From an uncultured Candidatus Saccharibacteria bacterium (GTDB lineage Bacteria > Patescibacteriota > Saccharimonadia > Saccharimonadales > Saccharimonadaceae): a stretch of 64,000 bases of DNA. The notes beneath the pieces are model-generated. The model saw only the letters and a list, made by a program, of their open reading frames with translations. It was not told where the DNA came from and did not search any database. Location: contig CAMNAK010000002.1 in assembly GCA_946530965.1 (NCBI GenBank), positions 248,001-312,000 on the forward strand. Reading direction: 5' to 3'. The translations under genes were made by a program, and so were the position numbers. Shown piece by piece: positions 60,368 through 62,739 of the stretch. The first letter of the stretch is position 1; each line of letters begins with the position of its first letter.

Positions 60368-60931
60368 TTAACAGCTGTAATATTCGCAATTTCGGAGCGG
60401 AATAAAGTTCTCGTCGGTCTGTTCCGCAATTGCCTTGCGGCTATCGTCGGTAGAATGGCACTCGATAGTTATATCGGCCAAACCAAACCCAGTTCCAGTC
60501 TCGACCTTGCCGTCTTCGAAATGTCTCCATTCTTTGGCGAGGACGTAAGCGCCCGCAGAAAGTCCAGCCAAAATAACGTCGTTTTCTAGGGCATCTTCCA
60601 AAAGCTGTTTGCCGCCCCATTTTTGGATGACATCATACAAAACTTCCGTGCTACCGCCACCAAAATAAACCAAGCTAGCGCCAAGTAAAACCTCTCGCGC
60701 TTCTTCGGCTGTAGTGGTAGATTTTAGCATTACAAAATCTTTCTCGTCGCACATTGAAGCATAATAATTCTTAAAACATTCATAGTAGCTTTCGGAATCA
60801 TTTGCAGCTGCGCCAACAAATACGATAGCGCCAGACTTCTTGCGTGCCGCTAGTGCCGCGTGGTCAATTTCTTCGGTCTCGCGAGATATGATTTCGCCGC
60901 CACCAATTAGAAATACTTTCGGCTCGTCCAT
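60368..60931 (-). CDS. Peptidase E-like protein (S51 family, class I GATase fold)
   Basis: 187 residues. FLIGGGEI, LVYFGGGSTEVL and the nucleophile elbow LAGLSAGAYVL (Ser125) are the S51/peptidase E marks, and a candidate His lies in ITIECHSTDD. The family includes dipeptidases for Asp-X dipeptides and cyanophycinases. The protein is shorter than E. coli PepE (about 229). It starts seven bases after the murA stop with an AGGAAG ribosome site, so it is on the murA transcript. A link to wall-peptide recycling is possible but not shown. Confidence 0.8.
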   Translation of the reverse strand: MDEPKVFLIGGGEIISRETEEIDHAALAARKKSGAIVFVGAAANDSESYYECFKNYYASMCDEKDFVMLKSTTTAEEAREVLLGASLVYFGGGSTEVLYDVIQKWGGKQLLEDALENDVILAGLSAGAYVLAKEWRHFEDGKVETGTGFGLADITIECHSTDDSRKAIAEQTDENFIPLRNCEYYSC

Positions 60932-60938
60932 AAACTTC

Positions 60939-62480
60939 CTAAATATCGCTCAATAACTCGATATCTGCGCCAAGTTCGCATAATCTCTCGGCAAACTTTT
61001 CGTAGCCGCGCGCGATTGAGTAGGTGTTACGAATAATCGATGTGCCAGGTGCGGCGAGCATTGCGAGCATAATTACAACGCTTGGGCGAAGTGCAGATGG
61101 AGCCATCATCTCGGCTGGACGCCAGTTGGTTGGGCCATAGATAAAGATTCGGTGAGCATCGAGCAATTCGACCTTGGCATTAAGATTATTAAGTTCCGTA
61201 GAATAGATTGCGCGGTTCTCAAATACCCAGTCATGAATCATTGTGCGGCCTTCGGCTTGCGCGGCAATCAAAGAGAAGAATGGCAAGCTGTCGATATTGA
61301 GGCCAGGGAATGGCATTGGGTGAATCTTGTCGGCCGGAGCGACGAGCTTAGATGGATAGAATGTGGCGTCGATAAGCTTTGTAAAGCCATTCTCGCTGAT
61401 GTATTCCTTGGTAATTTCGATCTTCTGACCCATGCTGCGCATGACTTCGAACTCAATCTCGAGGAACTCGATTGGGATGCGCTTAATTTCTAGCTCGGAT
61501 TTGGTTGCGATTGCGGCTGCAATAAAGCTCATAGCCTCAATTGGGTCTTCACCAGGAGTAAAGTCTACATTGGTATTAATCTCTTCGACGCCATGGATGG
61601 TTAGATTTGTAGTACCGATGCCTTCGATCTTAACGCCAAGCTTCTCGACAAAGCGACAGACGTCTTGAACCATGTAGTTTGGGCTAGCGCCAACGATTCT
61701 GGTAATGCCAGGAGTCAAAGCGGCAGCCATAACGGCATTCTCTGTGACGGTATCGCCGCGCTCAATAAGCACAATTTTACGCTCATCGTCCTTGATAGGA
61801 TTTACGCGAGCAAGGTAGAACCCGGATTCGCTCTTGGCATCAACTTCTAGGCCAAAGTGACTAAGTGCCATAAGGTGTGGACCGACCGTGCGAGTACCAA
61901 GCGAGCAACCGCCAGCATAAGGCAAGCGGAAGCTACCGAAATGATGTAGAAGAACGCCCATAAGCATAATGACGGAGCGCGTGCGACGTGCAGCGGCATT
62001 ATCTAGGCTATCGATATCGAGTTTCTCTGGCGGAGTGATTTTTAGACTGTTATTCTTTTCGTCCCAAACAACCTTTACGCCAATAGATTTGAGGACTTCG
62101 ATAATACGATATACTTCCTCGATATGCGCAAGGTGATGTAGAGTGGTAGTACCCTTGTTGAGCAAGCTAGCGCAAAGAAGGCCTACAGCGGCATTCTTAG
62201 AGGTGTTAATCTTTGCGGAACCATGCAAAGCATTGCCACCACGGATGCGATAGCTCTGGGTAGAGCCATTGCTAATACTGACAATTTGTTGATTTAAAGC
62301 CTTTGAAATCTTGCTAATTATCTCGAGAGAGGCATTCTGTTTGCCGTGCTCGATGCGGTTGATCGCTGATTGGCTAGTGCCAATCTTTTTAGCAAGTTCA
62401 GTCTGGGTCATATTGCGACGCTCGCGAGCCTTAGCAATATCTTGCCCAATTTGTGCCATAAAATCTGCGATATCGTTCAT
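60939..62480 (-). CDS. murA: XRE helix-turn-helix domain fused to MurA (UDP-GlcNAc enolpyruvyl transferase)
   Basis: 513 residues. Residues about 10-68 are an XRE-type DNA-binding domain (RRNMTQTELAKKIGTSQSAINRIEHGKQNASLE). From about 75 on it is MurA, the first committed enzyme of peptidoglycan synthesis. Key residues are kept: Lys95-Asn96 in TSKNAA, Cys192 in GGCSLGTR (the fosfomycin-target Cys), the Asp of LNIDSLPF and the Arg of SALRPSV. The fusion suggests an enzyme that also binds DNA, perhaps its own promoter, where two palindromes lie. TATAAT is six bases before ATG. It is followed by the peptidase E-like gene. Confidence 0.93.
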   Translation of the reverse strand: MNDIADFMAQIGQDIAKARERRNMTQTELAKKIGTSQSAINRIEHGKQNASLEIISKISKALNQQIVSISNGSTQSYRIRGGNALHGSAKINTSKNAAVGLLCASLLNKGTTTLHHLAHIEEVYRIIEVLKSIGVKVVWDEKNNSLKITPPEKLDIDSLDNAAARRTRSVIMLMGVLLHHFGSFRLPYAGGCSLGTRTVGPHLMALSHFGLEVDAKSESGFYLARVNPIKDDERKIVLIERGDTVTENAVMAAALTPGITRIVGASPNYMVQDVCRFVEKLGVKIEGIGTTNLTIHGVEEINTNVDFTPGEDPIEAMSFIAAAIATKSELEIKRIPIEFLEIEFEVMRSMGQKIEITKEYISENGFTKLIDATFYPSKLVAPADKIHPMPFPGLNIDSLPFFSLIAAQAEGRTMIHDWVFENRAIYSTELNNLNAKVELLDAHRIFIYGPTNWRPAEMMAPSALRPSVVIMLAMLAAPGTSIIRNTYSIARGYEKFAERLCELGADIELLSDI

Positions 62481-62486
62481 GCCTAT

Positions 62487-62492
62487 ATTATA
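62487..62492 (-). promoter_or_regulatory. murA -10 with leaderless spacing
   Basis: The minus strand reads TATAAT, ATAGGC, ATG. The -35 position falls in the palindrome at 62508-62519. Confidence 0.7.
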
Positions 62493-62507
62493 TCACCAAA
62501 TGCATAG

Positions 62508-62537
62508 AATATCGATATTTACATTTGTAATCGATTA
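62508..62537. promoter_or_regulatory. Two palindromes with ATCGAT core between murA and nrdD
   Basis: AATATCGATATT (62508-62519, perfect 12 bp) and TAATCGATTA (62528-62537, perfect 10 bp), with centres 19 bp apart. The first covers the murA -35 region. The second lies in the spacer of a plus-strand promoter (TTACAT, 17 bases, TAAAAT at 62542). They are candidate operators for the XRE domain of the MurA fusion. Confidence 0.5.
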
Positions 62538-62614: not shown

Positions 62615-62739
62615 ACACTATATATAGCGTCTGAAGCCAAAAAATCATCAATCTGTTGGGCGTTGTATTATTTACAAACAGTATTGCAGGACTCCACATA
62701 TAGCGTTACCATTATTTCAACACACACTACATATGGCGT
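62615..62739 (+). promoter_or_regulatory. Three NrdR-box-like sites before nrdD
   Basis: ACACTATATATAGCGT (62615-62630), ACTCCACATATAGCGT (62691-62706) and ACACTACATATGGCGT (62724-62739) resemble the NrdR consensus ACACWATATATWGTGT; the first is the closest. Boxes two and three start 33 bp apart, about three turns, the usual NrdR pair spacing. Box two lies between a possible -35 TTGCAG (62684) and -10 TACCAT (62707). Confidence 0.75.

Follow-up and report, generated by a model that had tools for sequence, protein, structure and literature searches.

Why does a cell-wall enzyme carry a DNA-binding domain, and does it control the transcription of its own gene? This question is raised by a murA locus of an uncultured Candidatus Saccharibacteria bacterium. 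The locus is part of the window, the whole stretch of 64,000 nucleotides that was analyzed (contig CAMNAK010000002.1, positions 248,001 to 312,000); coordinates in this report are those of the window. The initial annotation proposed that the helix-turn-helix (HTH) fused to MurA regulates murA. Comparison with related genomes supports this self-regulation, but the two palindromes named as its basis give way to a different operator. HTH-MurA of Saccharibacteria and related ultra-small bacteria is very likely an autorepressor of the trigger-enzyme type, in which an antitoxin-like XRE domain is fused to MurA.

Results

The fusion protein and its two domains

The fusion gene (60939..62480, minus strand) is a single open frame of 513 amino acids and encodes the sole MurA of the genome. 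The full-length MurA catalytic domain comprises residues 75–510 (60951..62258, minus strand). In a profile search, the EPSP_synthase/MurA domain is matched by residues 80–500 (1.3e-47). The protein passes the model NF006873 for UDP-GlcNAc 1-carboxyvinyltransferase (315 bits, cut-off 297); its score against the stricter equivalog model TIGR01072 (296.9) is below the cut-off of that model (392.7). The catalytic Lys-Asn, Cys, Arg, Asp and Arg of solved MurA structures all align with the window protein. Lys95, Asn96, Arg168, Arg197, Asp312, Asp397 and Arg465 are invariant in an alignment of 99 sequences, and position 192 is Cys in 93 of them. Among the 61 aligned fusions, Cys192 and all of the residues listed above are invariant. 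The genome (997 kb, 99.4% complete) contains one gene of the EPSP family, which is the fusion. This indirect evidence points to a working MurA, encoded by the only MurA-type gene of the genome. Close relatives belong to Candidatus Saccharibacteria, many of them from ruminant gut.

The XRE/HTH_3 domain comprises residues 10–68 approximately (62277..62453, minus strand) and resembles the antitoxins HipB and HigA. Residues 15–63 match HTH_3 (2.9e-16, 59.7 bits) and the helix-turn-helix is complete. Domain matches and alignments thus bear out the description of the initial annotation, an XRE domain in frame with a MurA that keeps its catalytic residues. Among the NCBIfam regulator models, couple_hipB gives the best score for the window HTH, below the cut-off of that model, and the domain also matches HipB structures. 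The recognition helix SQSAINRIE is formed by residues 36–44 (62349..62375, minus strand). Gln37, Arg42, Glu44, Gly46, Gln48 and Asn49 are invariant in the 61 fusions, and residues of the helix are conserved to the same degree as the catalytic ones. The recognition helix is therefore not degenerate, a state that would have spoken against DNA binding; a degenerate HTH as the general state is rejected, with L132 as an exception. The conserved operator and the covariation described below suggest that a dimer of the XRE domain binds to a short inverted repeat.

Downstream, a gene of the peptidase S51 family (window 60368–60931) is located on the same strand and starts 8 bp past the murA stop codon; it is a possible operon partner. 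The other neighbor is nrdD. No toxin gene adjoins the fusion in the window.

A conserved inverted repeat over the murA promoter

Both palindromes with an ATCGAT core are present upstream of murA, with their centers 19 bp apart. The first, AATATCGATATT (62508..62519), is located over the murA -35 position and the second, TAATCGATTA, at 62528..62537. Neither is conserved. In the alignment of murA upstream regions, the pair is found only in the window species and in relatives with 99–100% identity (L003, L032 and L063); it is absent from other relatives while the fusion persists. The window has 20 occurrences of ATCGAT (24 expected) and also contains 25 perfect palindromes of 12 bp and 76 of 10 bp.

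Side-by-side reading of the upstream regions revealed a conserved element that differs from these palindromes. In most lineages it reads TATATCATnnATGATATA, an inverted repeat of 18 bp in which the extended -10 element TGATATAAT forms the right arm. This is the ancestral form of the operator, seen in relatives of the window genus; the predicted site for an ancestral-type protein is TATATCATATATGATATA. In the window, the sequence TATGCATTTGGTGATATAAT (62487–62506, minus strand) lies between the ATCGAT palindromes and the start codon. The predicted operator is present here in a derived form, TATGCATTTGGTGATATA (62489..62506, minus strand), which is found at murA throughout the window genus. Its right arm overlaps the extended -10 element TGATATAAT of murA (62487..62495, minus strand). 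The derived form reads TATGCRYnnnRTGATATA in the window genus and TATKCRYnnnRTGATATA if the sister group is included. It is present in 33 of the 35 murA upstream regions of the window genus group.

The distance from the end of the operator to the murA ATG is 8 bp in the window, and 8–13 bp separate operator and start codon in most lineages; the murA transcript is therefore probably leaderless. Some copies of the operator extend across the start codon or lie at a distance of 50–95 bp upstream. In the window genus and in group g3, the symmetry of the site is lower than that of the ancestral palindrome. Thus, the link to the operator is made in these groups by conservation and near-uniqueness and not by dyad symmetry. 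Most of the apparent background signal for the motif in g3 comes from +438, a conserved coding position within murA.

Two further arrangements were observed. At locus L123 (G378), the site form of the window genus, TATGCATTTCGTGATATA, is present at the murA of a different family, the sister of which has the ancestral form; this is possibly a convergence. Loci of family f27 (e.g. L116, L118, L126, L128 and L131) have at least two operator-like sites at murA, separated by some tens of bp, and one of the sites overlaps or abuts the start codon.

The predicted operator accompanies the HTH domain

With the derived form counted, 57 of 60 fusions, from many families, have the operator upstream of murA, compared with none of 33 relatives lacking the HTH. 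Under a stricter score (at least 13 of 16 consensus positions within 150 bp upstream), the site is present in 50 of 60 fusions and in none of 34 HTH-less relatives (Fisher 5.6e-17); many of the sequences scored had already served to define the consensus, and the genome-wide and six-genome tests played no part in its definition. In the latter, six HTH-MurA genomes of another class, found later, all have the site at the fused murA.

Single loci are informative as well. In L132 the recognition helix is degraded (GIDTSLLTEIELGQKD) and there is no operator site. L025, with an intact helix, shows no more than a weak site; at L163 two sites are present, both weak and each matching 12 of 16 positions. 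G388 lacks the HTH, in a group whose other members of its MurA type are fused, and has no site.

In a tree of the MurA domain alone, the HTH is confined to one clade, which comprises 74 sequences; parsimony gives 12 changes, at least six of them forced by well-supported (starred) branches. The history of the HTH reads as one gain followed by repeated losses. Comparison of six independent pairs on well-supported branches yields a mean of 5.4 concordant and 0 discordant outcomes, which is borderline when taken alone (sign test, median p 0.06).

Residue 36 covaries with the operator arms

Of the 61 fusions, 57 have Ser and 4 have Thr at residue 36, the first of the recognition helix. All four Thr36 proteins (G220, G264, G290 and G646) have an operator in which TATAGCAT replaces TATATCAT in at least one arm; TATAGCAT arms are absent from the Ser36 fusions. 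The exchange S36T thus goes with TATAGCAT/ATGCTATA arms, i.e. with compensating changes in the inverted repeat. It has two origins on the MurA-domain tree, and the p-value of 2e-6 for this association is a naive one.

Exact copies of the TATAGCAT form are also present in genomes that lack a fusion. Three of these copies are located just upstream of a gene for a Gp49-family toxin, which is followed by an XRE antitoxin with the TTQS helix of the Thr36 fusions. The operator of the standalone modules L322, L323 and L328 (G562, G621 and G448, respectively) is TATAGCATATATGCTATA. The XRE antitoxins of the modules are 30–51% identical to the MurA-fused HTH domains with which they were compared. Autoregulation by antitoxins of such modules is well established. 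The fused HTH shares the HTH_3 domain with type II antitoxins (HipB, HigA; Gp49-XRE), and the recognition helix and the operator with the three standalone modules. Unlike these antitoxins, it is joined to MurA, has no adjoining toxin gene in the window and has a biosynthetic target. In the simplest history, an antitoxin-like HTH would have been joined to murA and would have kept its cognate type of operator.

Operator copies elsewhere in the genomes

Among 37 fusion genomes, 23 contain copies of the operator with at most one mismatch, 25 copies in total. Upstream of HTH-murA are 24 of these; the remaining one is located at murB in G168. Ten exact copies are present in 379 Patescibacteria genomes, one per genome and nine of them at HTH-murA. 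This distribution is the pattern of a single-target regulator. In a fusion-less genome, an exact canonical operator (L319; G323:C28:1167-1184) is located upstream of a gene for a protein of 334 amino acids, and no XRE gene is found near this copy.

The window genome was searched by pattern. It contains four exact matches to the derived motif, the one at murA and three that are apparently intragenic; a large regulon in this genome is rejected accordingly. The derived motif occurs 15 times in G286 (g3; L248–L254). Some of these copies are inside genes and others upstream of tsaD; given their number and the intragenic copies, the motif may have a lower specificity in this genome. Five copies are present in G109 (L255–L258). 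In both genomes the motif is found 8 bp upstream of tsaD. A wider regulon or a promoter feature is possible in this genus.

murB and nrdD as possible further targets

In G306 and G163, murB is divergent from HTH-murA and one operator is located in the common promoter region. In G168 (L263:1421-2494), the only other operator copy of the genome with at most one mismatch is located 12 bp upstream of murB, which encodes the enzyme that follows MurA in the pathway. The operator is missing at murB in seven other family members in which this gene is close to murA. Thus, murB appears to be an occasional second target. Comparative evidence for transcriptional control of the own pathway is strong for murA, and this predicted control includes murB in G168, G306 and G163.

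The initial annotation also considered that nrdD might be co-regulated. This is unlikely and nrdD is rejected as a target: it adjoins murA in 25 of 141 loci, all from the genus-level group of the window, and has NrdR-box-like repeats of its own at 62615–62630 (exact), 62691–62706 and 62724–62739. A NrdR-like gene is present elsewhere in the genome (G000:C1:510226-510633), with a score slightly under the family cut-off.

Discussion

Autoregulation of murA by HTH-MurA is well supported by the comparison of genomes. The XRE domain, presumably as a dimer, would bind the 18-bp inverted repeat over the extended -10 element of murA. The bound HTH-MurA most likely blocks RNA polymerase, and this negative feedback would keep the output of MurA constant. 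The operator would serve murB too in a few lineages. Repression rather than activation is inferred from the position of the usual site: it covers the -10 element, and in some cases the start codon, and a dimer bound there would stand in the way of the polymerase. XRE proteins are able to activate and some genomes have a second upstream site, but with this position of the usual site it is unlikely that the fused protein activates murA.

Related bacteria have standalone XRE proteins whose recognition helices are almost identical to the fused one and whose operator is the same. The palindrome could accordingly belong to a separate, trans-acting XRE regulator, with another role or none for the fused HTH. 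This is quite improbable, since the site is missing whenever MurA has no HTH and varies together with residue 36 in the fused helix. Furthermore, genomes with HTH-MurA carry the site at murA and almost nowhere else, so a trans-acting regulator would need to have lost its own autoregulatory site.

It is very unlikely that the conserved stretch is only a feature of the promoter, i.e. an extended -10 element with an AT-rich spacer. The right arm does coincide with the extended -10 element, and these genomes have many TGATATAAT promoters that lack the left arm. The left arm, however, is positioned between -10 and -35, where no contact to sigma-70 is expected, and only one of 19 other TGATATA sites in the window genus group has it; a generic promoter motif is rejected for the window genus on this count. 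The compensating changes of the arms and the copies far upstream or across the start codon likewise argue against a mere promoter element.

The ATCGAT palindromes, two perfect ones in the right interval, can hardly be the operators and are rejected as such because they are missing at every fused gene except those of near-identical strains, are as abundant as chance predicts and are absent from relatives that keep the same recognition helix.

The trigger enzymes PutA, NadR, BirA, PepA and PyrH of E. coli are metabolic enzymes and transcription regulators at once, as is proposed here for HTH-MurA. One mark of a trigger enzyme is the combination of an enzyme with a DNA-binding domain, and HTH-MurA has it. 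NadR has an N-terminal HTH of XRE-like type, as HTH-MurA does. The list includes no cell-wall enzyme, and the E. coli cases have unrelated enzyme folds. For PutA, DNA binding is known to be under the control of a ligand. This enzyme occupies only the putA-putP spacer, acts as a repressor of its own gene (PMC8249747) and so provides a model for HTH-MurA.

Control of MurA has been described at the protein level, by UDP-MurNAc feedback, CwlM, IreB/ReoM and ClpCP (PMC12077105). For the MurA of E. coli and Enterobacter, feedback by UDP-MurNAc and a dormant complex are described (PMC12077105), which makes gating by a ligand plausible. Tentatively, HTH-MurA may thus be a ligand-gated autorepressor. 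By acting on the MurA domain, UDP-GlcNAc/PEP or the feedback inhibitor UDP-MurNAc would alter the hold of the HTH dimer on the operator, transcription for wall synthesis (in some lineages including murB) would be set by the precursor pool, and the DNA-binding domain and operator would have been captured together from a toxin-antitoxin module. Canonical MurA has the same catalytic residues and a full-length domain; HTH-MurA adds the DNA-binding domain and the predicted operator. No published description of a MurA-HTH fusion or of MurA as a trigger enzyme was found in the open-access literature.

In HTH-MurA, a single polypeptide of reduced, host-dependent bacteria would combine the enzyme with the control of its gene. 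To our knowledge, little is known about gene regulation in Patescibacteria, and the element at murA is a concrete predicted operator in this group that can be tested. The finding also suggests a route by which a core biosynthetic gene can come under regulation, namely the joint capture of an antitoxin-type HTH and its operator.
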